A stretch of 41,090 nt of DNA from Thermoflexibacter ruber (GTDB lineage Bacteria; Bacteroidota; Bacteroidia; Cytophagales; Thermoflexibacteraceae), in NCBI RefSeq assembly GCF_900113045.1, contig NZ_FONY01000044.1:1-41090 (forward strand), written 5' to 3'. Position numbers and translations under genes: made by a program. The notes beneath the pieces are model-generated. The model saw nothing but the letters and a program-made list of their open reading frames with translations. It made no database searches and was not told the DNA's origin. Below are positions 5,583-24,900 of this stretch, in pieces (the first letter of the stretch is position 1; every line of letters begins with the position of its first letter).

Positions 5583-8500
5583 ATGAAACCGATAAAGTTT
5601 TTATTAGCTTTTCTCCTACTTTTTATTGTTTGTATCATTGCTGAGCCTTTGTCTTTTGCCAAAAAGCGTGAGCCTATCCCTATGAAGCAGTTTGACGCTA
5701 CTCTGGCAATTTGTGAAAGATACTACGATGATGGGGAGTACGAAAAAGCCTTAGACCAATGCACACGCATGGTCAATAAACTGAAAAGACAATCCTTAGG
5801 CTATGCAGTGGCATATATCCAACTCTACCAAGCCAAATACTATGAGGCAATGGGCAACTATCTCAAATTTGAGGAAACCATACGCGACTTATTAAAAAAT
5901 AAAAAACTTATCGGGGGGCAGAACGCAGAGTTTGCCTACGGCTTGGCGCAGTTAGATGTAGCTGGCTTGTATGCCGAATATTCTTACATCAATCGGGCTG
6001 AATTATTTTTAGACAGCGCAATTACCGCCTTGAAACTCAAAGTAGATGCTAACGGCAAGGTAGGTATGCCAAGCAATGACGACAATATCAAAGCCAATGT
6101 GCTTACTACCTATGCCAAGATTTACTACGAGAGAGGACAGATAGACAAGTTGCTCAGAATCATGCCTGAACTCATCAAGGCTAAAGAAGCACTGATTTCT
6201 GACCAAGACCAACGCTACTATGATGTTGTCAATCAGGAATATACTACCAAGGTCTTAGACCCTATAGAGATAGATCGCCGAAAAAATGAAGCAGCAGAGA
6301 TGATGACACTTTGGGGAGATGTTTTGCGACTAAGAGGCGATTACAAAGGAGCAGAAAAGCAATTGGAAAAAACTGATGAATGGATAAAACAGAACCTAAA
6401 CAAACGGTCTATTGCTTACATTCGCAATCAGCACATTATGAATCTATTGAAAATCGACATGGGAGAGCGAAAAGAAGTTACTCAAAAAATGATGGAAAAA
6501 AACTTCTTTACTGCGGAAAAGCGAGTGAGTACGGTGCATAAGCTATACTTGCAAATCCATGAAAGTATGATAGACAACTACATAGACAGTAGATACATCA
6601 AAAGAAGTAAAAAACAACGATGGGAACTACGCCAAAATACAAAAATGTACTATGGGGTGGATAGAACTCAGCATGCTGTTTCTCAAAGATTAGATGCCAA
6701 AGCAGATTTTAGGTCACAAGACTATAAAAATGCCTATAACGACTTATTAGCACTCTACCAAAATGCAATCAAAGTCCCAACAAACCATATAGAAAGAGTA
6801 CATCTCTTGCAGCTACTTTACGAAGTTGCCTTAGCCTACGATAAATACCAAGAAGCCCTTGTTTACCTAACCGAGCAGATAGAAACCATAGAAAGAGTCT
6901 TAGGTAAGCAATCTCTGCGCTATTACTATGCCCAAATGGAGTTAGCAAAATATAATGCCACTTACACTAATAAGTTTGAGGAAACTAAGAAAATTATAGA
7001 CATGAATTTCTTTGGAAAAATTGCCCAACAAATCACTAAAGAGCATAAGGATTACACAAAGTTTTTAAATCAATTAGCTGATTATCATATTCTTACCAAT
7101 AGGTATGATTCCTCAGATTATTGGCAAAAGCAGGCAGTACAAATTGTAGAGAAAAAGTTTGGCAAAGAGCATATAGAGTATGGAACGCAGTTAGCCCGTC
7201 TTGTAAAAATACAAATGCTCAGAGGCAACTATACCGAAGCAGACAAAAATGCAAACATGGCTTTAGAGATTTATCGGGCAGAAGAAAGAAGAAACAATAA
7301 AAACGTACTCAATAAAATCTTCACAGGCAACCAAGACCGCCTTTTCAATGCTATGTACGCAGAAGTATTGCAAACTGCTGCTTCTTACTATGCTACTGTG
7401 GGGCTTTTTGGGAATGCCCAAAGTGCTTTGACTTTGGCGAACCGCTTATTTAGCAAATCTAATACCTCTATTGCTAACTCCTCTGCCTTAGACGAACTGG
7501 CTTACCTCTATATCAAAATGGAGCAAACCGAAAAAGCAAAAGATATTTTAGAAAAAGCAGAAAGTTTTAGAAAACAGCGATACGGCGAAAATAGCCGTTT
7601 TCTTATCAAGCCCTATAACCAATTAGCAAGGGTATATCTCTTTGAGGGGGATTATATCAAGGCAGATGAATACGTAAATAAGGCTTTGACCATTGCTGTT
7701 AAAGAGTTTGGGGAGAATGGACTGCAAACTACTGAAAGTATTACTATATTAGCAGAAATCGGGGCAGCAGCAGGCGATTACGAAAAAGCCAAAGTAGAAA
7801 TCACTCGCGCCCTTGATATTTTGACTAAGGAATTTGGCAGAGATAATATCATCATTGCTAATCCACTGAACGAGTTAGCTATTATTCGCTTCTTGAACGG
7901 TGAAAATCTAAATGATATTGAAAAACAGCTGGCAGAAGTCAAAGGCATCATTTCCAAGACTTTAGGAACTACTAACCCGCTCTACGCCAAGGCAGCAGTA
8001 ACTTTGGCAAGTGCCTACATAGAAAACAAAAAATTTGATGAAGCCCGCAAAGAATTGGACGAGGCAAGCAAGATTTGGGTACGCATTTTTAAAAATAACC
8101 GCAATACAAACAATGCAGAAATTTTTGAACTTTTAGGGGACATAGAATCCAAAAAAGCAAACTATAAACAAGCCGAGTACAGATATTTGGAGGCAAGAAA
8201 AATTTACGCCACTGTCTTGAATACCCGCCACCCACTTTATACTCGCTCCTTGAGTAGATTGGCGCGCTCCTCTTTCAGTGCAGGCGACTTACTTAAATCT
8301 CAAAGATACATAGATGAAGCCATTACCCAATACAAGTATTACATTACCAACTTCTTTCCTGCCCTTAGCGATAGAGAAAAAGTTAAATATTGGGGGGCTA
8401 TCAGACGAGATTTTGAGTTTTACGACAACCTTTTGGCGAAACGGGCTAAAACAGACCCAGGCGCTATTGCAATCATGTATAACAATAAGTTATTGACTAA

Positions 8501-9929
8501 ACCCTTGTTAGCAGGTTCTACCCAAAAGATTCGCAATGCCATTGACCAAACTAAAGATAGCACCTTGATAAAAAGCTATGACAGGTGGATTGAGCAAAAA
8601 ACTTACTTGACTAAGGTGCTGGCAATGAGCAATGAACAGCAAAAAGAAGCCAATGCTGACCCCAAGAAAATTCAAAAAGAAATAGAAGATTTAGAAAAAG
8701 TCCTCAGCCGTAAGTCAGATATTTTTAAGTCCAAAGAGAAAGAAATTACGTGGACAGAAGTACGTAATGCTTTGAAAGCAGGAGAAGTTGCTGTAGAAAT
8801 AGTGCGATATAATTATTTCGATAAAGCCTTTACCGACTCAGTAGTGTATGCCGCTTTGGTACTTTTCCCTAATGAACCCAAAGCCCCTAAGCTTGTGCCT
8901 ATTCCAGAAAGTAATAAGCTGGAAACCAATTATATCAAACTCTATCGCAATGCAGTCAAGTTTGGTATCCAAGACAAGCAATCCTACTTGCGTTATTGGA
9001 AAGCTGTAGATGATGTCATTCCCCCTAACTCGAGAGTTTATCTGTCAAGCGAAGGTGTTTATCCTCAAATCAATATAGAAGCAATGCTCAAAGAAGACGG
9101 AAAGTATGTAATTGATGACGAGAATATACTCTTGCTGACGAGTACACGCGATTTGGCAGAGGCAAATAAAGCAGGCAAGGTAGCCAATGATATTATCATC
9201 GTAGGAAGCCCTATTTTTTACTCTGATTTAAAGCCAGAAGACTATTTGAAAATTAATAATAGAAAAATTCCACAACTTCCCGGTACATACACAGAAATTC
9301 AGGGATTAGCAGACTTGCTTAAGCAGTCTAATAAAATGCCTAAGGTCATGCTTACTACCCAAGCCAATGAGGATTCACTGAAAACACTACTCAAAACTCC
9401 TCCTAAAGTATTGCATATTGCCACACATGGATTTTTCGAGCCAGACTTGGTAGATAATAGTTCTGAAAATTTGTTAAGTTCACAAAGAGCAGTAAACAGC
9501 CCTTATTTGCGTTCAGGTATTCTCCTTTCCAATGCAGGCGAACTCATGGCAGAAGGCAATGTATATCAGTACAATAGAGCCGCAGGTGTATTTACTTCGT
9601 ATGAGTGGAGAGATATGAACTTAGACGGTACTCAGTTAGTCGTCATGAGTGCTTGTGAAACAGGGCGTAGCGATGGCAAAATTGGGGAAGGGGTGTACGG
9701 ATTGCAACGTGCCTTGCAAGAGGCTGGTGCAGAAAGCCTGATTATGAGTTTGTTCAAAGTAGATGATGATGCTACCCAAAAACTCATGCAAATCTTTTAC
9801 AAAAATTGGCTTGTCCTCAACCAAGATGTAAGAGTTGCCTTTGTTAATGCAAAAAAAGAATTGCGTGAAGATAAGAAATTTGCTGACCCGCGATTCTGGG
9901 GAGCATTTGTCATGATAGGAAAGAGCTAA
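5583..9929 (+). CDS. Secreted TPR-CHAT protein (caspase-like CHAT domain)
   Basis: The 1448-residue product starts with a clear signal peptide (KPIKF, then a long Leu/Ile stretch ending around PLSFA), so it is expected outside the cytoplasm. Residues from about 35 to 950 are helical tetratricopeptide-like repeats with recurring D-Y-x-K-A patterns. A charged coiled linker (about 1020-1060) leads to a C-terminal CHAT domain (about 1065-1447). The predicted catalytic pair of this clan CD peptidase-like fold is intact: His1282 in HIATHGFF and Cys1358 in VVMSACETG. CHAT domains are related to caspases and separase, and some have been shown to be site-specific proteases; the substrate here is unknown. 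A long hairpin (9938-9983) follows the stop. A second protein of the same architecture lies at 27832-31254. Confidence 0.9.
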   Translation: MKPIKFLLAFLLLFIVCIIAEPLSFAKKREPIPMKQFDATLAICERYYDDGEYEKALDQCTRMVNKLKRQSLGYAVAYIQLYQAKYYEAMGNYLKFEETIRDLLKNKKLIGGQNAEFAYGLAQLDVAGLYAEYSYINRAELFLDSAITALKLKVDANGKVGMPSNDDNIKANVLTTYAKIYYERGQIDKLLRIMPELIKAKEALISDQDQRYYDVVNQEYTTKVLDPIEIDRRKNEAAEMMTLWGDVLRLRGDYKGAEKQLEKTDEWIKQNLNKRSIAYIRNQHIMNLLKIDMGERKEVTQKMMEKNFFTAEKRVSTVHKLYLQIHESMIDNYIDSRYIKRSKKQRWELRQNTKMYYGVDRTQHAVSQRLDAKADFRSQDYKNAYNDLLALYQNAIKVPTNHIERVHLLQLLYEVALAYDKYQEALVYLTEQIETIERVLGKQSLRYYYAQMELAKYNATYTNKFEETKKIIDMNFFGKIAQQITKEHKDYTKFLNQLADYHILTNRYDSSDYWQKQAVQIVEKKFGKEHIEYGTQLARLVKIQMLRGNYTEADKNANMALEIYRAEERRNNKNVLNKIFTGNQDRLFNAMYAEVLQTAASYYATVGLFGNAQSALTLANRLFSKSNTSIANSSALDELAYLYIKMEQTEKAKDILEKAESFRKQRYGENSRFLIKPYNQLARVYLFEGDYIKADEYVNKALTIAVKEFGENGLQTTESITILAEIGAAAGDYEKAKVEITRALDILTKEFGRDNIIIANPLNELAIIRFLNGENLNDIEKQLAEVKGIISKTLGTTNPLYAKAAVTLASAYIENKKFDEARKELDEASKIWVRIFKNNRNTNNAEIFELLGDIESKKANYKQAEYRYLEARKIYATVLNTRHPLYTRSLSRLARSSFSAGDLLKSQRYIDEAITQYKYYITNFFPALSDREKVKYWGAIRRDFEFYDNLLAKRAKTDPGAIAIMYNNKLLTKPLLAGSTQKIRNAIDQTKDSTLIKSYDRWIEQKTYLTKVLAMSNEQQKEANADPKKIQKEIEDLEKVLSRKSDIFKSKEKEITWTEVRNALKAGEVAVEIVRYNYFDKAFTDSVVYAALVLFPNEPKAPKLVPIPESNKLETNYIKLYRNAVKFGIQDKQSYLRYWKAVDDVIPPNSRVYLSSEGVYPQINIEAMLKEDGKYVIDDENILLLTSTRDLAEANKAGKVANDIIIVGSPIFYSDLKPEDYLKINNRKIPQLPGTYTEIQGLADLLKQSNKMPKVMLTTQANEDSLKTLLKTPPKVLHIATHGFFEPDLVDNSSENLLSSQRAVNSPYLRSGILLSNAGELMAEGNVYQYNRAAGVFTSYEWRDMNLDGTQLVVMSACETGRSDGKIGEGVYGLQRALQEAGAESLIMSLFKVDDDATQKLMQIFYKNWLVLNQDVRVAFVNAKKELREDKKFADPRFWGAFVMIGKS

Positions 9930-10776: not shown

Positions 10777-11679
10777 TTACATAGCGTACTCATATATCAG
10801 TTTTGATACTTCAGAAAGCATTTTCGTTCCTTTGTCAAAGTCCTCCATTTTTCGTGAGAGCAGGACTAACACATACTTTTTTCCGTTCGGTAAGTAAACA
10901 ATAGCAGAGTCGTGATGCACGCCTGTAATCGTACCTGTTTTGTGAGCAACTTTGACCTCTTGGGGCAAAAGTGCGGGAATTACATCGTTGAATTTTTGAT
11001 TTAAGAGAATTTTTCGCATTTCTTCACACGCCTTTACATTCAGTACCTGATTCATTGCTATTTTCTCCAGCAGCAAAGCCAAATCGTAGGCAGTAACTGT
11101 ATTATTCATGCCTTTTCCAAAAGCTTTGCTATCTTCCACACCTCTAAGCACTTTCATTTGATTAATACCTAAGGAATGTAAGGTTTGTGTTACATTTTCT
11201 GCCCCCACTATTTCTATGAGCATATTGGTAGCAAGATTGCTACTCACTGTAATCATCTCATAAACAAGCTGATAAATAGTGCGTTTCTGTCCCAAGCTGC
11301 TATAAAGCACCTCCTCGCTGTCATCAGCTACATCTAAGCTATAAGCACTGCTATCTACAATGCTTTTAAATTCATTTTTTAGTGTTAAGGAATCTGTCAA
11401 AGCAAACTTTCCCTCCTGTGCCTGCTTGAATACTTCTAACATCACTGCCGTTTTCATGGTACTTGCGGCATGAAAATCGGTAAAAGCGTTAATAAAAAGT
11501 GTATCTGAGGGATTATCTAAGTCTTTGTAAGCTAAGGCAAATTCGCCTTTAATGCTGGCAAACTTGGCTTGTATTTGTTTTTTTAGGTCGTTCATTTTGC
11601 TATGCTTTGGCTCGCATGAAGTAATAAGAAATAACAGCGAAAGCAATATTTTAGTAAGAGCAGGAAAATTATTTGGCAT
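10777..11679 (-). CDS. Class A beta-lactamase-like serine hydrolase, lipoprotein
   Basis: The 300-residue product has a lipobox (I-T-S-C, Cys22) after a hydrophobic N-terminus, so it should be a lipoprotein in the cell envelope. The penicillin-recognising serine hydrolase motifs are present: SxxK at Ser73-Thr-Met-Lys76, an SxN-type motif at Ser146-Ser-Asn148, Glu182 in an omega-loop-like RGVEDSKAF segment, and KTG at 247-249. The order and spacing fit class A beta-lactamases. Many environmental Bacteroidota homologs of this type are untested, so beta-lactam hydrolysis is likely but not shown; peptidoglycan-related activity is the main alternative. It lies 21 bp after the lactonase-like gene and about 93 bp before the preferred DUF547 start. 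Confidence 0.8.
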   Translation of the reverse strand: MPNNFPALTKILLSLLFLITSCEPKHSKMNDLKKQIQAKFASIKGEFALAYKDLDNPSDTLFINAFTDFHAASTMKTAVMLEVFKQAQEGKFALTDSLTLKNEFKSIVDSSAYSLDVADDSEEVLYSSLGQKRTIYQLVYEMITVSSNLATNMLIEIVGAENVTQTLHSLGINQMKVLRGVEDSKAFGKGMNNTVTAYDLALLLEKIAMNQVLNVKACEEMRKILLNQKFNDVIPALLPQEVKVAHKTGTITGVHHDSAIVYLPNGKKYVLVLLSRKMEDFDKGTKMLSEVSKLIYEYAM

Positions 11680-16220: not shown

Positions 16221-17711
16221 ATGAAATATTTAGGCGTAATAGTTTTTTTTCTTGCTCATCTATTTTCTTCTTTCACCTTCGCCCAAGACCACCAAAGGAT
16301 AGAATTTGAAGCAAAATACCAAGCAGATAAATTTAACAATTTTCAGCTTGTTCCTCTCAAAAAACAAGGTTTTGTCTTGTTCAGAGAACATACCAAACAA
16401 AAGGGTAATTGGGTTTTTAGTCTGTATGATACCTGCTTGAATAAACAATGGGAGAAAAATATCCAAGTAAATCCCAAGTTTGTCTTCCAAGCTAAGCAAA
16501 GAGATGGAGAAAATATTTATCTGCTCTTTACTAAATATCAAAAAAGTGATTTTCAAATAGTTCAGTTCAATACGCTTACGCTTCAGCTCAGTTTGCATAC
16601 TATACAAGGTTTGAAAAAATTTGGTTTTACAGGTTTTAGAGCGATGAACAATGCCTTTTTTGTCAGTGGGGTCATTGGACAAACTGCTTTGGTCTTGTAT
16701 TTTGATTTGTTAGAGAAAAAAACAAGGGTGTTACCTGCTTCTTTGACAAAGGATTTGGAAATAGACAGCATAGAAAAAGACAGCCTCAACAATGTGCTGC
16801 ATTTTACTATTGCAAGTGAAAAACGCACAGACTATGAGTTACTTATCAAATCCTTTGACACCCAAGGTAACTTAGTCAATGAAATCAAAGTAGGCAATAC
16901 TAATGAAAATAAACTGATTTCAGGAAAACTCTCCGTCTTGGACAACGGGCAAAAAATTGTTATAGGAACTTACTCTGACGGTTCTTCTTCTTTGGCTGAT
17001 GGAATTTATATTGCTGGTTTCCAAGAAAATAATACCCAAGAATACATACAGTTTTATCCTTTTTCTCAATTTGAGCATTTTTTTGATTTTATTCCCAAAG
17101 ACTTTCAAAGGAAAGTTTCTAAGAAAAAACAAAAAAATAACACCCTCAAAGGCAAAGATGTACGCCTGCAATATCGCCTTTTAGTCCACAGTCCTATTTT
17201 GCGGAAAGAGGATATTCTGCTCATTGCAGAGGCTTACTTCCCTTTGTACCGCTACAATCCCAAAGTAGATTGGCAGGGAAGGCGCGAGGGGGTAACTTCT
17301 GAAATTGTTTTTGATAGCTACCAACATACTCACGCTTTGGCGTTGAGTTTTAATAGAAAAGGAAAATTGCTCTGGGACAATATTTTTAAAATAGAACAAG
17401 TCAAAAACAAGGATTTACAAAAAATTATCCAAGTGCGTGTCCGTAAAGATAGTTTGGTTTTGCTCTATGGAGCAGAGGGCTTTATCAAATCCAAAACCAT
17501 TGAAAAACAATCAGTAAAAGACAGCGAAACCAAAGTGCCTATTCCTATCAACTCTCCACACGACCAAATCAAAAAAACGTACAGCAATGAAATTGCTTTT
17601 TGGTATGAAAAGCATTTTTTGGCTTGGGGATACCAAGCTATTGGCAATGAAAAAGGTACACCTAATGCTAAGAACCGGAAAGTATTTTTTGTGGCGAAGG
17701 TATTGTACTAA
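16221..17711 (+). CDS. Exported protein of unknown function
   Basis: The ATG at 16221 is chosen because it opens directly into a signal peptide (MKYLGVIVFFLAHLFSSFTFAQ), although the frame is open from 16032. This start gives 496 residues. I do not recognise the family. The mature part is rich in Lys, Gln, Phe and Leu and alternates short beta-like strands, which suggests a beta-propeller or similar repeat fold in the periplasm or outer membrane; that is an inference from composition. No catalytic motif, lipobox or C-terminal sorting domain was found. It diverges from the AAA ATPase gene and converges on the oxidoreductase gene across a repeat-filled gap. Confidence 0.75.
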   Translation: MKYLGVIVFFLAHLFSSFTFAQDHQRIEFEAKYQADKFNNFQLVPLKKQGFVLFREHTKQKGNWVFSLYDTCLNKQWEKNIQVNPKFVFQAKQRDGENIYLLFTKYQKSDFQIVQFNTLTLQLSLHTIQGLKKFGFTGFRAMNNAFFVSGVIGQTALVLYFDLLEKKTRVLPASLTKDLEIDSIEKDSLNNVLHFTIASEKRTDYELLIKSFDTQGNLVNEIKVGNTNENKLISGKLSVLDNGQKIVIGTYSDGSSSLADGIYIAGFQENNTQEYIQFYPFSQFEHFFDFIPKDFQRKVSKKKQKNNTLKGKDVRLQYRLLVHSPILRKEDILLIAEAYFPLYRYNPKVDWQGRREGVTSEIVFDSYQHTHALALSFNRKGKLLWDNIFKIEQVKNKDLQKIIQVRVRKDSLVLLYGAEGFIKSKTIEKQSVKDSETKVPIPINSPHDQIKKTYSNEIAFWYEKHFLAWGYQAIGNEKGTPNAKNRKVFFVAKVLY

Positions 17712-17828
17712 AATACGGAGTATATGCGAATGGTTAGGTTTCAATAGAGCTTTTATTATTTGATTTTCAATGAATTACTTTCTTAGGCTTAGATGGTTAA
17801 TTTATCTAAATTGTTACTAACTACTTAT

Positions 17829-17935
17829 GGAACACAGATAATACTAATTTTGCAGATAAAACACTGATTTTTGCGTAATTTATTAGTGAAAATCCATATA
17901 ATCTGTAAAATCTATGCTCTGAGGTTATTATGCAA
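17829..17935. repeat. Decayed intergenic repeat (GGAACACnGATnA type)
   Basis: In the 451-bp gap between convergent genes, a segment beginning GGAACACAGATAATAC and continuing through a CAGAT...CTGATTTTT part ends in an opposite-facing AATCTGTAAAATCT part. It resembles the segment at 25325-25421. Imperfect elements of this style recur between genes in Bacteroidota, which is from memory of the phylum and not searched. Confidence 0.45.
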
Positions 17936-18010
17936 AAAAGTTATTCAATTAACTTACTGATTATACGTAAGTAAAAACTCTAATAAATATCTGTTCCTAC
18001 TTTACTCTCC

Positions 18011-18085
18011 GCCTTCGTTGGTCTTTTGACCAGCGAAAAGGCTACAAAGCGCAGAGATATGTTTGTTGGTGAAAACATCAACAAA
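18011..18085. repeat. Tandem hairpin pair in intergenic repeat
   Basis: Two hairpins follow one another. The first (18011-18042) has arms around CGTTGGTC and GACCAGCG with a TTTT loop, extended by GCCTT and AAGGC. The second (18062-18085) has arms TTTGTTGGTG and CATCAACAAA with an AAAA loop and one G-T pair. No T tract follows either. Their position between convergent stops could still help end transcription. Confidence 0.6.
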
Positions 18086-18091
18086 GGAATT

Positions 18092-18148
18092 AGAAATAAG
18101 TAATCAGCCCAATACACTTACACAAATGTATTAACTTTTCTTACAATC
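18092..18148 (-). repeat. 57-bp repeat, copy 1 (inverted relative to copy 2)
   Basis: The reverse complement of this segment matches 25484-25540 at 53 of 57 positions; all four differences are transitions. Similarity stops abruptly at both ends. It lies 14 bp past the 3' end of the oxidoreductase gene. Read on the minus strand it contains TACATTTG, a TAnnTTTG match, pointing toward the hairpin pair and the exported protein gene. Confidence 0.8.
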
Positions 18149-18162
18149 CTATATGTTTTATG

Positions 18163-19350
18163 TTAAAATAGAAACTTAGTTTGGGATTGAGCGAACTTTG
18201 TATCATAAATTGCCTCTATACGCATTTGGGCATAACCAGCACTTGTAGTCATGCCCTTGCCACCTATACCCGTGCAGATAAATATTTTATCTGAAATAGT
18301 GTGTTCAAAAATTCCCTCAGGGTGCGAGGCATAATAGCCTACCCAATAGCTTTGCATCTGCCAAGTAGGGAGGTCTAAAATCTGCTTCGCTTCGTCTATC
18401 ATCAAATCGTTCAAATAAGTATTGATGCCAAAATCCAATGATTCTGTGTCTTTTACCCCGGCGTACTCGTGTGTATCGCCTATGATGATAGAACTGTCTA
18501 TTCCTTGCTTAAATAAAATATGGATTCCGTATCTTTGGAGTTCAGGTTTAGGATTTTCTGCCAAAACTTTTTCGTAAGAGGGGCAAGCATGAAAAGCCTC
18601 ATACCTGCGAATAGTAAGCCCCGTAAGAATAGCCCCTTGCAGATTGACCTCGGGCATAGGAACGGTTCGCATCATTTGTAACTTGCACAATTTGATGCCA
18701 CTATTGGCAAAAAGTTCGGGAAAAAGGATTTTAAATTCGCTTCCATTACAGATAATGACTTTTTCTGCTGTGTATTTTTGCCCTTTGCTATCTATGACTT
18801 CGCAAAGCCCGTCTTGAATGTCGCAGTGTTTGACAAGTGTAGTATGCAAAAAATCTAAGTGATAGTCATGTATCAGAAAATCAATTACTTTTTGAATCAT
18901 CTCTCTTGGCTCAACGGTGAGTTCTTGTGGGAAATACAAGCCTCCTACGCAATAGCTTTCTTTTAATCGGTCTATTTTAGCTAAACATTCCTCTTTGTCC
19001 AACAAATAAGAGGCATATTCTTTTTCTTGGTAAATTTGATGCAACTCATTGATTAACTGCCACTCTCCTTCGTTGGAGGCGATATAAGTTGCCCCATTTT
19101 CTCTGACGGTAATATTGGTTTTTCTTTGAATTTCTTTATAAACCTCTAAACCTATCTTTCCATACTTCCACCAAGGTTCCTCTTGCCCAGAGGGGACAAC
19201 CTGCCCAAAATTACGAACACTGGCAGAGGAAGGGGTATTGTCTTTTTCTATCAGCAAAACAGAAAGCCCTTTTTTAAGGGCATGGTAGGCATGAAAAGTC
19301 CCTAATGCTCCCCCGCCAATAATGATGAGATGGTATTTTTTTGAATACAT
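18163..19350 (-). CDS. FAD-dependent oxidoreductase of the phosphonate-associated DAO family (TIGR03364-like)
   Basis: The ATG at 19348-19350 is preferred, giving 395 residues, because it places the dinucleotide-binding motif IIIGGGALGTFHA at the usual N-terminal position; the frame is open for 31 more codons upstream. The LLIEKD strand and the GGKGMTTSAG motif near the C-terminus fit the D-amino-acid oxidase/glycine oxidase fold. Its neighbours, a DUF5690 protein and a phosphonatase-like hydrolase, match the known association of this oxidoreductase clade with phosphonate genes. The expected reaction is oxidative deamination of an aminoethylphosphonate-type compound to the aldehyde used by the hydrolase. 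The substrate (AEP, an N-methylated or a 1-hydroxylated form) cannot be decided from sequence. Confidence 0.8.
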   Translation of the reverse strand: MYSKKYHLIIIGGGALGTFHAYHALKKGLSVLLIEKDNTPSSASVRNFGQVVPSGQEEPWWKYGKIGLEVYKEIQRKTNITVRENGATYIASNEGEWQLINELHQIYQEKEYASYLLDKEECLAKIDRLKESYCVGGLYFPQELTVEPREMIQKVIDFLIHDYHLDFLHTTLVKHCDIQDGLCEVIDSKGQKYTAEKVIICNGSEFKILFPELFANSGIKLCKLQMMRTVPMPEVNLQGAILTGLTIRRYEAFHACPSYEKVLAENPKPELQRYGIHILFKQGIDSSIIIGDTHEYAGVKDTESLDFGINTYLNDLMIDEAKQILDLPTWQMQSYWVGYYASHPEGIFEHTISDKIFICTGIGGKGMTTSAGYAQMRIEAIYDTKFAQSQTKFLF

Positions 19351-19530
19351 AAACGGTAAATTTTTAGCTAAAATTAAAATACTTGGCTTAGATAAAAAGG
19401 CATAAATGAGTATATTTAACAAAAAGTTCTTATTGAGAGGCAAAGATTCTTTTTAAGGCTTCCCTTCCTTCAAATTCAGTTCAAATAAGGTGCTTACATT
19501 GCGATTGAAAGATTATAAAAAACAAATACA

Positions 19531-20835
19531 TTGAAACTTATCAAGCAATTCCTTTCTAAATCATCTACTTATGCTTTTGTCATCTATGCAAGTTTGGCGG
19601 CATTTAGCACCTATTCTTGTATGTATGCCTATCGCAAGTCATTTTCTGTCGGAATTTTTGAGGGAATGGAGTTTGGGGGCATAGACTATAAAAGTTTGCT
19701 CATTATCGCCCAAGTATTGGGTTATATGTCCTCTAAGTTTTTGGGAATCAAGATTATTTCCGAAATGAAATCCAGCAGTAGAATGTGGGCAATTCTTTTA
19801 CTCATAGGTTTTTCAGAGTTAGCATTGGTGGGTTTTGCTTATATCCCTACTCCTTATAATATTATTTGTTTGTTTCTGAATGGCTTGCCTTTGGGAATGA
19901 TTTGGGGCTTGGTATTCAGTTACTTAGAAGGGCGAAAAACTACAGAAATCTTGGGAGCAGTCTTGTCTTTGAGTTTTATAGTGGCTAATAATATTGCTAA
20001 ATCGCTTGCTCAAACCCTGCTCCAACAAGGGATTTCAGAGTTTGCTATGCCGTATTTGGTAGGGCTAATCTTTGCTGTGCCTTTGTGCATTTCTGTCTTT
20101 TTGCTTAACCAAGTCCCCCCCCCAACTCAAGGAGATGAAGCAGAAAGAGTAAAAAGAGTGCCTATGAACGCACAAGCACGTTGGCAGAGTTTCCAATCTT
20201 TTGCTTTTGGGCTTACCTTGCTGATAATCAACTATATGTTTTTAACTGCTTATCGAGATTTGCAAAGCAATTTTGCCTCTAATATTTGGCTTGCTTTGGG
20301 CTATGCAGAAGTTCCCTCTATTTACATTACTACTACCTTGCCTATTACCTTGATAGTGTTGGCAATGATGGGTTTGCTTTACTTGGTCAAAGACAATTTC
20401 AAAGCCCTTTTGTCCATTCAAGGCATGATTATTTTGGGCTTACTCATGATTGGTTTGGGAACTTTTGCTTTTGAGCAAGGATTTATTTCAGGGGCATCAT
20501 GGGTAATTATCACAGGTACAGGGACTTATCTTTGTTACATTCCTTTTAACTGCTTTTTGTTTGAGCGCACTATTGCTTCTTTTAAAATTGTAGGAAATGC
20601 AGGTTTTTTTATCTATCTGGCAGATTCTTTTGGCTACTTGGCGAGCGTAGGAACTTTGCTTTACAAAAACTTTTTTGAAACCCAATTAAGCTGGTATCGC
20701 TTTATTATCAACAGCAGTTATGCGCTTACTTTTGTTGGCTTAATAATTTCAATATCAACAATTTTATATTACTTGCATAAGCAGAGAACGTTAGTAAATA
20801 AAATAATTTTATCTTCTGAAATTCAACTAAACTAA
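19531..20835 (+). CDS. DUF5690 family membrane protein, MFS-like candidate phosphonate transporter
   Basis: The start must be the TTG at 19531, because an in-frame TAA lies at 19516-19518 and the next Met (about residue 30) is already inside the first membrane segment. The 434-residue protein has about 12 hydrophobic segments split by a charged central loop (PPPTQGDEAERVKRV, from about residue 195), the layout of a major facilitator transporter. DUF5690 has no established function; its place between an oxidoreductase and a phosphonatase-like gene suggests import of their substrate. The central loop is encoded by a C9 run (20115-20123). The hydrolase gene starts 5 nt after its stop, so translation is probably coupled. 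Confidence 0.75.
   Translation: MKLIKQFLSKSSTYAFVIYASLAAFSTYSCMYAYRKSFSVGIFEGMEFGGIDYKSLLIIAQVLGYMSSKFLGIKIISEMKSSSRMWAILLLIGFSELALVGFAYIPTPYNIICLFLNGLPLGMIWGLVFSYLEGRKTTEILGAVLSLSFIVANNIAKSLAQTLLQQGISEFAMPYLVGLIFAVPLCISVFLLNQVPPPTQGDEAERVKRVPMNAQARWQSFQSFAFGLTLLIINYMFLTAYRDLQSNFASNIWLALGYAEVPSIYITTTLPITLIVLAMMGLLYLVKDNFKALLSIQGMIILGLLMIGLGTFAFEQGFISGASWVIITGTGTYLCYIPFNCFLFERTIASFKIVGNAGFFIYLADSFGYLASVGTLLYKNFFETQLSWYRFIINSSYALTFVGLIISISTILYYLHKQRTLVNKIILSSEIQLN
20115..20123 (+). other. C9 homopolymer within DUF5690 gene
   Basis: Nine consecutive C residues span codons GTC-CCC-CCC-CCA in a strongly AT-rich genome. The frame is intact at this length. Such a tract is prone to replication slippage and to sequencing error. 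Confidence 0.9.
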
Positions 20836-20840
20836 TTGAT

Positions 20841-21530
20841 ATGAGCATAAAATTAGCGGTCTTTGACATAGCGGGTACTACCGTTAAAGACTCCAACAAT
20901 GTGCATGAAGCGCTACAAAAAGCCTTGCAAAGAGCGGGTTTTCATTTTACAGTAGAGGAGATTAATCCTTACATGGGTATTCCTAAGCCTTTGGCTATCA
21001 AATATCTATTAGAACAACGCCCTACAGCTAAACACTTGGTGGAGGACGAGGATTTTATTCAGGAGGTACACAAAGATTTTGTAGCAGAAATGTTACTTTT
21101 TTACCAACAAGCGGCAGAAGTAATAGAAAAGCCTTTTGCCTCAGAAGTTTTTAAAACATTGAAAAGCAAAGGCATCAAAGTAGCCTTAGATACAGGATTC
21201 TCAAGAGAAATTACTGATGCTATCATTCAGAGATTAGGCTGGGACAAGGGCGGTTTGATAGACTTTTCAGTAACGAGCGATGAGGTAGCGAATGGCAGAC
21301 CATATCCTGACCTTATTTTTAAAGCCATGCAGATAGCAGGTATTGATGACAGTCAAGAAGTTGCCAAAATAGGTGATACATCTTCCGATTTGCAAGAAGG
21401 CACTACGGCGGGTTGCAAGTATGTGATTGGCGTTATTACAGGAGCATTTAGTAGAGAAGCTCTTGAAAAAGAACCACATACGCATTTGGTAGCTGATTTG
21501 AGGGAAGTTTTGACTATTGTATTAGCATAG
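20841..21530 (+). CDS. Phosphonatase-like HAD hydrolase (PhnX-like, TIGR03351 type)
   Basis: This 229-residue protein has the marks that set phosphonatases apart from other HAD enzymes. Motif I is FDIAGTT (nucleophile Asp9, with AGT in place of DxDx). A cap-domain lysine, Lys49 in YMGIPKPLA, is placed to form the Schiff base with an aldehyde. The usual HAD lysine is replaced by Arg153 in NGRPYPD, and acidic residues Asp179 and Asp183 lie in GDTSSD. Thr118 in ALDTGFSR is motif II. The reaction should be C-P bond cleavage of phosphonoacetaldehyde or its hydroxy form. Unlike classic PhnX, no PhnW transaminase is nearby; the FAD oxidoreductase would supply the aldehyde. Confidence 0.85.
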   Translation: MSIKLAVFDIAGTTVKDSNNVHEALQKALQRAGFHFTVEEINPYMGIPKPLAIKYLLEQRPTAKHLVEDEDFIQEVHKDFVAEMLLFYQQAAEVIEKPFASEVFKTLKSKGIKVALDTGFSREITDAIIQRLGWDKGGLIDFSVTSDEVANGRPYPDLIFKAMQIAGIDDSQEVAKIGDTSSDLQEGTTAGCKYVIGVITGAFSREALEKEPHTHLVADLREVLTIVLA

Positions 21531-21537
21531 ATAAATG

Positions 21538-21880
21538 TTATACTCAAAATAAAATGATTTTTCAATCCCCTTCTCTTGCTGAGAAAGGGACTTTGGTTCT
21601 CTGACATTTTTTCCAATGAACAATACTATATCTAACTTTAAGCCCGTAGGGCTGTCATCTTGGTAGAAAAAGGTAAGCCCAACCTCCAGCAACTCCGTAG
21701 GCGTGAAATATGCCACCGCTACGCGGTTTTATTCATTATTTTCTACAAAAATAGCACACCTACGGTGTTAGTCAAAGGCAGATGAAAGTCCAATGCTTAT
21801 ATAAGTTTTACACAGAAAGTGTCAGAGAACCGGGACTTTGGAGTAAAGAAAATTTCAAAACCACTTTTGATTGAGTATAA
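21538..21880. repeat. MITE-like element with Bacteroidota REP-type core
   Basis: Perfect 10-bp terminal inverted repeats (TTATACTCAA at 21538-21547, complement at 21871-21880) enclose a 16-bp subterminal pair (21595-21610 and 21816-21831, one mismatch). The core (about 21641-21768) has the CCGTAGG...GTAGAAAA pattern on both sides of a CCGTAGGCGTGAAATA and CCGCTACGCGG centre, resembling repeats common between genes in this phylum. It lies between convergent genes and begins 8 bp after the hydrolase stop. No open frame of note is inside. Confidence 0.7.
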
Positions 21881-21982
21881 AAGCACATTTGTCCAATTCT
21901 AAGTATTTACAAAACAACACACATCACCCAAAAATTGTACCTTTATAAAAGTTAAAACTTCATAAAGGTACAGTGTTTTTAT

Positions 21983-24900
21983 TTACCTTCTTCGCTCGCT
22001 TTCAATAATTTGCTGATATAATTTTTCAAAAGAATCATTGTATTTTTTATACAAACCCTCGTAGAGTTTAAGGCGTTCCTTAGCAGTTTGCAGTTCTTTT
22101 TCATCAAAATCGCCTTGACTTACGCTTCCCTTCTCCAAAGAGGCTTTCTCCGCTTCTAACTTCTCTACTCTTCCTTCTTGCCTTTGCACCAGCCTACCGT
22201 AAAGCACAGATAATTGGTTCAATATCAACAAACTTCTATCTTTAAGGCTGCTATTGCCAAAGTTGCTAATTCTGTTTTTAGCCAAATATTCCAATACTTC
22301 CATTGACCTCCTGCCAAGTGTATCGGCTAAGTCCTGAGCGCGTTTGTCCTCTCCAAGTAAGTGGAAAAGCTCGACATAGCGAGGGATATAGTAATCATAA
22401 GGAATACTCTTATCTGGGATTTGTGCTAAACTCCACTCTAATACTTCTTTTGCCTTGTCTTCTTTTCTTTCTACATAAAACTGATACGCTAAGCGATAAA
22501 AAGCATTGCGTTCATTTGCTCCAAACTTTTTGTATTCCTCATCATGGTAAACATTAGGGTCGTCAAAACCTCTAAATTGGAATTTCTTGATATTTTCATA
22601 CATAATGCCTGTATCTACTTCTCCTAAATCCCCTCCATCAGTTCTGTAAGGCACGATGCGGTATGCCAAACCTTCCATTTGCAGGTAGTTTCTTAGCTCT
22701 ATTGCTGTGGTATTAGCAGAGGTATTATTAAAGTAAAGAGGTCTTTTCCAATCGCTTGTAGCTAACATGTCCAAAATCATCAAGTCGCTTTTGAACAAAG
22801 CCCCGCTTCCTTGACGCAAGCCAAAACGCATTTGACGGACTATTCGCGATTTCTTATTCTCCGGAACAACATTCATTTGAGCCACTGCCGCACTATCCAC
22901 ATTCAGCACAAAGTTCTTAGAAGGCAAACTTGCTGTACTTCCCCCACCTTGCAATTCTACCATAATGTTTGGATTAGATTCTTTTACCCACTTCATGTAA
23001 GTCTTTAAGTCTATGCCCGCAGCCAACTGCTTGTATTCTGTTCTATCTAAATAAGGCACATAGTCATTTGTTCCTGATTTGTACTGGTCATATTCCAAAG
23101 AAATAGGCAGAGGTTCAGATTCATACATCTGACGTTTCAATTGGTTAATGTACCAGTCTGTACTCAAATAGCTCAATACCACTACCCTCACGTCTGTCCT
23201 AAATCCTTCTACATCTTGCACATACCAAAGAGGGAAGGTATCGTTGTCCCCGCCTGTAAACAAGACAGCATTGGGCGCGCAACTTGCTAAGGTATTTCTC
23301 GCTTGGTCTATGGAATGGTAGCGATTGGAGCGGTTATGGTTATCCCACCCTTTGGCACCCATGATAGTAGGTACAACCATGCAAAGTGCAGTAGCTATCG
23401 CAGGGCGGATAGTATCATTTTTTATCAACTTTTTAAGCCACTCACTAATGCCAATGACCCCAAAGCCAATCCACATTGCAAAGGCATAAAAAGAACCTAC
23501 ATAAATATAATCTCTTTCTCTTGGCTCCACGGGCGGCGAGTTCATGTAAAGCACCAAAGCAATGCCCGTAAGGAAAAATAGCATCATGACTACGGCAAAA
23601 TTTTTCTCGTCTTTGCTCAATTGGAAAAACAAGCCTAACAAGCCCAAGACCAAAGGAAGCATATAAAAATTATCTCTTGCTTTGCTTCTTGCCGCTTCGG
23701 GAGTTTTGTCATTGCTTGGGTCAAAAGGCGTCAACCAGCCAGCCTCTTTGTCGTCCCCATCTCTGCCCGCAAAGTTCCAAAGGAAATAGCGGAAATACAT
23801 GTGTCCAAGTTGATACCTAAACAAATAAGTCAAGTTGTCTATAAAATTTGGTTTTTTCCTACTTTCTGGAATATTTGCCCATTCTCTGTATAGTTGCGGG
23901 TGGTCTTCGCCTTGGCTGTGCATACGTGGCAAAAGCATTTCGTTAGAATACACTGCTTCTGTTTTGTAATCATAAATTTCGTACTTGTCTTTTCCCTTGC
24001 GGTACAAAGGCTCTTTTTGTACGACTTCTAATCTTTCAGAGGCAAAAGTACGTCCGTAAAGCAAAGGTCTATCGCCGTATTGCTCTCTTTTCAAGTAAGA
24101 TACGAAAGACATCACGTCTTCTGGATTGTTTTCGTCTATAGGAGGGTTGTAGTTAGAGCGAATCAGCACTAAGCCATAAGAGGCATACCCTATCAGCACA
24201 AAAGCAAAACCCAACAAAGCAGTATTTAAAATTTCATTTTGTTTTTTAATGGAATAAATAATGCCGTAAACCACCGCACCTAAAAATAAGATAGCAAAGA
24301 ATAAAGCCCCAGAACCAAAAGGCAAGCCAATGCCATTGACAAAGAAAACTTCAAACTTCCCTGCAATAGTCGGCAAACCGGGAATGACAAAATACATAAT
24401 AAGGATAATGATGCCCCCACTAATTGCCATAGTGCTTATCAAGCCCCAAAGGGTGATGGTAGGATATTTTTTATAGTAATAGACCAAACCTAAAGCAGGA
24501 ATAGTTACCAAGTTGAGCAAGTGAACCCCAATGGAAAGTCCCATCATATAAGCAATGAGAATCAGCCACTTATTTGCCAATATAGGATTGTCTATGGTTT
24601 CCCATTTGAGCATCGCCCATACTACGAAGGCAGTAAAGAAAGACGACATACCGTACACCTCTGCTTCTACGGCAGAAAACCAAAAAGAATCAGAGAAGGT
24701 ATAAGCCAACCCGCCTACTACCCCTGCACCTATCAAAGTAATCTGCTGTCCTAAGCTATATTCTCCATCATTTTCAGGAGCGGGAATTAGCTTTTTCCCT
24801 AATAAAACAATAGACCAATAAAGGAAAAGAATAGTAAAGCTACTTGACAAGACAGAAATCATATTTATCCAAAACGCTACTCTTTCCACCTCTCCCATAG

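Follow-up and report, generated by a model that had tools for sequence, protein, structure and literature searches.

The present analysis concerns a 41,090-nucleotide stretch of Thermoflexibacter ruber (contig NZ_FONY01000044.1 of the assembly GCF_900113045.1; hereafter, the window) and three neighbouring genes in it, which probably form a compact module for aminophosphonate utilisation. The central gene encodes a membrane protein of the DUF5690 family (PF18943), and its assignment as the importer of the module is new and well supported by the evidence described below. The module consists of the following features.

18163..19350, minus strand: flavin adenine dinucleotide (FAD)-dependent oxidoreductase of the PbfD/TIGR03364 family (TIGR03364, 380.1 bits; Pfam DAO, PF01266)
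19351..19530, no strand: divergent intergenic region, presumed home of both promoters (reading of the sequence)
19531..20835, plus strand: DUF5690 membrane protein with a TTG start and the major facilitator superfamily (MFS) fold, predicted aminophosphonate importer (PF18943, 502 bits; AlphaFold2; fold matches)
20841..21530, plus strand: PhnX-like haloacid dehalogenase (HAD) hydrolase, predicted to cleave phosphonoacetaldehyde (TIGR03351, 216.2 bits; alignment with PhnX, 1rql; catalytic residues)

The sequence-only reading of the window had grouped these three genes together, and their open reading frames (ORFs), families and positions were confirmed. The oxidoreductase ORF as listed extends to a TTG at 19443, and the ATG at 19350, which gives 395 amino acids, is the likelier start. 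From this ATG, 180 bp separate the oxidoreductase gene from the divergently transcribed DUF5690 gene, which lies 5 bp from the HAD gene on the same strand. A promoter scan of positions 17700–22100 stayed at chance level (16 found, 13.4 expected). When the whole window was scanned with 14 local profiles of the usual cluster genes (E 1e-8), only the three genes of the module were detected, and none for SusCD, a helix-turn-helix (HTH)-cupin regulator, a phosphodiesterase or Phn-HD. The same reading had noted that neither PhnW nor a carbon–phosphorus (C–P) lyase is present, and this holds throughout the genome (99.64% complete), in which the top PhnW match scores 35.5 bits (cut-off 400.8) and the C–P lyase protein PhnJ gives 0 matches.

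The co-occurrence of the three families was checked, as the earlier reading had proposed, in a phylum sample of 296 genomes with match limits of 1e-20 for DUF5690, 1e-50 for TIGR03364 and 1e-35 for TIGR03351. The families were found in 29, 23 and 21 genomes, respectively. DUF5690 is present in 21 of the 23 TIGR03364 genomes and 20 of the 21 TIGR03351 genomes, with hypergeometric p values, which ignore genome relatedness, of ~1e-23 and ~4e-23. The possibility that DUF5690 mostly lies apart from these genes was not borne out: it is on the same contig within ~10 kb in 17 of the TIGR03364 genomes and in 17 of the TIGR03351 genomes. Among 80 named loci, which are the best 80 of at least 595 and the closest to the window protein, a phosphonate gene lies within 10 kb of DUF5690 in 58 and within 1.5 kb in 52. 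The corresponding number is 20 of 29 for the DUF5690 loci of the phylum sample, a set that excludes the window and includes the paralogue from its own genome. None of 20 arbitrary 20-kb stretches from 11 sampled genomes contains a phosphonate gene above the thresholds; the near miss was an aldehyde dehydrogenase (194.7 against a threshold of 200), and a single SusC/SusD pair also occurs in them. DUF5690 thus mostly lies inside catabolic clusters for 2-aminoethylphosphonate (AEP), as would be expected of an AEP permease (58/80 against 0/20).

The enzymes beside DUF5690 are not always those of the window (here and below, L and G numbers denote loci and genomes). PhnW+PhnY+PhnA (L093, L267), PbfA+PhnW (L107, L122), PhnW+PhnX (L123, L145) and Phn-HD (L168 and others) were also found. 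Eight DUF5690 genomes have neither TIGR03364 nor TIGR03351 at the limits used; of these, G126 carries PhnW, PhnY and PhnA over their cut-offs and Phn-HD (local profile) beside DUF5690, and G014 carries PhnW and PbfA, both detected by local profiles. In G119, PbfD is on another contig, and PbfA (over cut-off) and PhnW (local profile) adjoin DUF5690. Because DUF5690 is common to routes that share no enzyme, such as PbfD+PhnX-like and PhnW+PhnY+PhnA, a role in transport is suggested, and because it accompanies several phosphonate routes, its substrates appear to go beyond a single compound.

The 79 linked copies are scattered over a tree of 110 sequences (16 changes compared with 27.3 in shuffles; the tree came from a quick search, was midpoint-rooted for drawing and gave long-branch warnings for L095 and L108). 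Caulobacter, Brevundimonas, Bowmanella and a Deltaproteobacteria bin are among the sources of linked named loci. An artefact of a single genus was considered as the source of the linkage and rejected, since linked copies occur throughout the tree and, of the 13 named loci placed outside Bacteroidota by record title, 9 are linked, 3 of these 9 via Phn-HD alone. A candidate pathway sensor is a regulator with HTH and cupin domains that recurs by these clusters (6567–7169 in L085 and 12 other loci). One cluster (L163) holds two DUF5690 genes (1359 and 4789) together with PbfD, PhnX-like and Phn-HD genes.

The window protein scores well above the PF18943 gathering cut-off (502 against 25 bits), and its AlphaFold2 model has a predicted local distance difference test score of 92 and a predicted template modelling score of 0.89. 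A Foldseek search of the PDB with this model returned human G6PT (SLC37A4) structures as all of the top 12 matches, with GlpT at rank 30. In VIA-align, G6PT gave a Z score of 32.8 and a root-mean-square deviation of 3.3 over 362 aligned residues. The matched PDB structures are, we presume, MFS transporters. The modelled fold of DUF5690 is thus that of the MFS and leans to the organophosphate:phosphate antiporters (OPAs); the fold alone indicates MFS, not OPA.

Arg35, Lys54, Gln61, Lys69 and Arg242 are invariant in 110 of 110 DUF5690 sequences; Arg35 precedes the PF18943 match, which starts at residue 37. Residues 25–125 align with a profile built from seven OPA proteins (E 4.7e-5, probability 68), which places Arg35, Lys36 and Lys69 at Arg45, Lys46 and Lys80 of GlpT. 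The equivalents of Arg45 and Lys80, which we took as the mark of an OPA, are thus two of the invariant residues. The score against the OPA profile was 45.7, compared with 19.9 for a control profile that pooled the other MFS proteins, 19.6 and 20.8 for reversed controls, and 39.4–42.8 when OPA members were left out. Arg45 and Arg269 of GlpT bind phosphate, and Arg242 may be the equivalent of Arg269.

Of the 296 genomes, only three carry TIGR03364 or TIGR03351 without DUF5690 (G215, G258 and G179), and the corresponding stretches of all three contain a transporter that matches TIGR00881 best among the NCBIfam profiles and glpT second best. These transporters score 195.5 (L117), 170.1 (L118) and 163.3 (L119) bits against TIGR00881, below its cut-off of 407.75, and keep Arg45 and Arg269; those of L118 and L119 adjoin PbfD. 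Conversely, at E 1e-30 no GlpT-like transporter was detected in the 80 named loci or in the 29 DUF5690 loci. A similar replacement is seen with another set of enzymes: a GlpT-like gene follows PhnA-PhnY-PhnW in Arenibacter (L266), and the order in Chitinophaga (L267) is PhnA-PhnY-DUF5690-PhnW. At 7425–8724 of the Arenibacter stretch, PhnW is seemingly split into two adjacent ORFs, perhaps by a frameshift or a stop.

The oxidoreductase is over the TIGR03364 cut-off (380.1 against 285.1 bits) and also matches DAO. In PMC10590968, PbfD enzymes are reported to oxidise N-methyl-AEP to phosphonoacetaldehyde, M. fucicola PbfD2 to accept AEP as well with the same product, and A. baumannii PbfD1 to carry the TIGR03364 annotation. 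The window enzyme, here called PbfD, is predicted from its family to turn N-methyl-AEP, AEP or both into phosphonoacetaldehyde by oxidation. A PbfD+PhnX pair that dispenses with PhnW is a route already published there (PMC10590968). The enzyme half of the module is therefore not new, and the window pair is a further member of this known route. In Maribacter forsetii, the top-expressed SusCD pair of laminarin-grown cells is reported to adjoin an alkaline phosphatase, an FAD-dependent oxidoreductase and a phosphonatase-like hydrolase (PMC11345257); this locus may be a phosphonate cluster instead.

The HAD scores 216.2 bits against TIGR03351 (PhnX-like), marginally below the cut-off of 218.9, and 119.5 bits against TIGR01422 (PhnX), for which the cut-off is 220. 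The earlier reading had credited it with all diagnostic residues of a phosphonatase, which goes too far. Asp9-x-Ala-Gly-Thr, Lys49 and Arg153 were read correctly and align with Asp12, Lys53 and Arg160 of the solved PhnX (PDB 1rql, E 1.6e-22). Ala14, Thr16, Met49, Thr126, Asp186 and Asp190 of PhnX are also present, whereas Cys22, His56 and Tyr128 are replaced by Asn19, Ala52 and Phe120. His56 is listed among the PhnX residues that directly take part in catalysis (PMC11203657); of Asp12, Lys53, Arg160 and His56, the first three are kept in the window HAD. In 56 PhnX-like sequences, including that of the window, Asp12, Lys53, Arg160, Asp186 and Asp190 occur in 56 of 56, and the His56 position holds Ala in 49 and Val in 7. 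His56 is kept in 11 of 12 lower-scoring PhnX-type sequences; ten of these 12 were scanned, and nine exceed the TIGR01422 cut-off, with L169 below it. As judged from these alignments, the window HAD is a PhnX-like sister without His56. Such enzymes must manage without this residue or use a slightly different substrate, which raises the question of how they build the Schiff base.

A precedent for the transporter is AepP of Pseudomonas putida BIRD-1, a GlpT-related MFS permease that is required for the use of AEP as a nitrogen source and shares the GlpT residues essential for phosphate binding (PMC8316502). In several phyla, genes for AepP are reported there to lie together with PhnWAY, PhnWX or putative catabolic genes, with Kriegella aquimaris among the examples for Bacteroidetes. 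DUF5690 is very probably an inner-membrane aminophosphonate importer that works like AepP. This assignment, proposed in the sequence-only reading, is supported by the linkage, the MFS fold, the GlpT-like residues and the replacement by GlpT-like transporters; its order of import, oxidative deamination and C–P cleavage likewise agrees with the genome context, the fold and the residues. We infer the import direction, the substrate and the activities of both enzymes as follows. The two-carbon aminophosphonate that DUF5690 would carry across the inner membrane would be AEP, N-methyl-AEP or a hydroxy relative, and Arg35 (helix 1) and Arg242 (helix 7) of this separate, GlpT/AepP-like MFS family would hold its phosphonate group. 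PbfD would convert the aminophosphonate to phosphonoacetaldehyde with release of ammonia or methylamine and H2O2. The PhnX-like HAD would then form a Schiff base via Lys49 and split the C–P bond to give acetaldehyde and phosphate. Internal phosphate would possibly leave through DUF5690 in exchange, and the chances that DUF5690 exchanges aminophosphonate for phosphate appear to be about even. A wider proposal, which we put forward only tentatively, is that DUF5690 is an unrecognised MFS aminophosphonate:phosphate exchanger that replaces AepP in Bacteroidota and some Proteobacteria. Together with PbfD and the PhnX-like enzyme lacking His56, it would form a minimal 1:1 cycle of phosphonate in and phosphate out, in which the aminophosphonate feeds nitrogen and carbon, not phosphorus.

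Several observations weigh against the importer assignment. In VIA-align, NorA (Z 32.0) ties with G6PT, and URAT1 and OCT1 reach 31.3. No MFS or OPA profile hidden Markov model gave a match with DUF5690. In particular, TIGR00881 (OPA) gives no match at E up to 1, and DUF5690 is therefore not filed as an OPA member. The DUF5690 profile found nothing among the PDB sequences at E up to 10, and hhalign comparisons with single E. coli proteins were weak (UhpT best at 33, XylE and GlpT ~24). When four GlpT-like transporters from the clusters were combined in a profile, only residues 27–71 aligned (E 0.0098). One of eight control subsets of other MFS proteins reached 39.4, in the C-terminal half, compared with 45.7 for the OPA profile, and because of this subset the OPA alignment is suggestive only. 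Arg242 falls on Arg269 of GlpT only in a forced global alignment. By sequence, DUF5690 is thus no OPA member, and it probably works like one. As for the replacements, the L117 transporter lies ~6 kb from the TIGR03351 gene, and the Arenibacter genome of L266 carries DUF5690 elsewhere. The transporters of L117–L119 are 62–87% alike and are not three independent events; therefore, the cases perhaps represent two independent swaps.

The linkage also has gaps. In 22 of the 80 named loci, some on cut contigs, no phosphonate gene lies nearby, and the same is true of a six-member clade (L089, L091, L092, L187, L191 and L199). L169 is linked by a local match of 132 bits, with only 110 bits against TIGR03351, and the count without it is 57 of 80. 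The genome of T. ruber itself has a second, unlinked DUF5690 (L083, G000:C61, 9120–10487), 48% identical to that of the window, which adjoins a gene that, judged by eye, probably encodes a sodium:solute symporter; no phosphonate gene was found within ~9 kb upstream or ~3 kb downstream, up to the end of the stretch analysed. Eighteen genomes with unlinked copies were searched for PhnX and PhnW (PbfA, PbfC and PhnY*/PhnZ were outside the search). At 1e-15, PhnX or a PhnX-like protein is matched in seven of them, and PhnW exceeds its cut-off in two, which makes eight genomes altogether; the other ten (G080, G115, G122, G065, G275, G283, G366, G353, G354 and G370) have neither. Three of the ten gave PhnW matches below the cut-off (G065, 303 bits; G354, 229; G283, 108), and similar ones occur in 9 of 14 control genomes. 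The unlinked paralogues may have another substrate. That they disprove the role of DUF5690 was considered and rejected: in Chitinophaga G356 and Sediminibacterium G368, another copy of DUF5690 is part of a phosphonate cluster. In G369, a remnant of DUF5690 adjoins the PbfD/PhnX-like cluster. At 11388–11693 of L271, a remnant matched over residues 317–419 lies beside a PbfD/PhnX-like/SusCD cluster, and the same genome has a full-length unlinked copy (L120). In L120, L124 and L126, a PHP-type gene (histidinol-phosphatase-like by eye) is directly upstream of the unlinked DUF5690.

Such copies bear on the possibility that DUF5690 imports organophosphates or phosphate generally and that its link with phosphonates reflects broad phosphorus scavenging. 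Three of them stand beside the PHP-type phosphatase-like gene, and in 38 compared stretches phosphodiesterase-family neighbours (PF01663; gene cluster C5 in 12, C8 in 9) and SusCD are frequent. Aminophosphonate enzymes are nevertheless the most frequent neighbours of DUF5690, in a set of stretches partly chosen for them, and the phosphodiesterases could free aminophosphonate from lipids or glycans; we regard general import as unlikely. Export of phosphate or another product of the route is quite improbable. The routes do release surplus phosphate, which the arginine pair would bind, and phosphate export during growth on AEP is reported in PMC8316502. The swap partners, however, resemble the importers AepP and GlpT, an argument that comes from the swap alone, and an antiporter would both import and export, as in the aminophosphonate importer that we favour. 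It is very improbable that DUF5690 transports nothing and instead senses external aminophosphonate or phosphate, in the manner of the glucose-6-phosphate sensor UhpC, a GlpT paralogue that is 38% identical to GlpT. An MFS fold with anion-binding arginines would fit a sensor too, and 6 of the 38 stretches carry genes that by eye resemble two-component regulators (cluster C10). These genes hold no fixed position relative to DUF5690, however, and the commoner regulator is the one-component HTH-cupin protein (C3, 13 of 38). In addition, GlpT-like transporters, though possibly sensors themselves, fill the place of DUF5690 in three clusters that lack it.

No paper naming DUF5690 or PF18943 was found in a search that left out supplements, bioRxiv preprints and most subscription journals. 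In PMC8115612, 'inner membrane Po transporters' are mentioned beside phosphonate genes in a figure, and part of the link between DUF5690 and phosphonates may already have been noticed there. Plant-associated Bacteroidota are reported in the same text to be without common organic-phosphorus transporters. If DUF5690 is an aminophosphonate importer, a widespread unnamed Pfam family gains a function, and a single marker family would allow surveys to count aminophosphonate uptake in Bacteroidota. The role might also explain SusCD clusters that are currently credited to sugars.

Among known systems, the PbfD2+PhnX route of M. fucicola (PMC10590968) resembles the module in using oxidative deamination instead of PhnW, followed by a phosphonoacetaldehyde hydrolase; the window differs in its TIGR03351-like hydrolase and in the additional DUF5690 gene. 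G6PT (SLC37A4) and GlpT are the best Foldseek matches of DUF5690, which has aligned equivalents of Arg45, Lys46 and Lys80 and perhaps one of Arg269, whereas the identities in the Foldseek rows are 13–19% and DUF5690 lacks a TIGR00881 match. AepP is reported to be 27.75% identical to GlpT (PMC8316502), whereas no MFS or OPA profile recognises DUF5690. DUF5690 is like AepP in its predicted MFS fold, its place in AEP clusters and its alignable phosphate-binding signature, and GlpT-like genes occur in the position that DUF5690 otherwise occupies in those sampled clusters from which it is absent.

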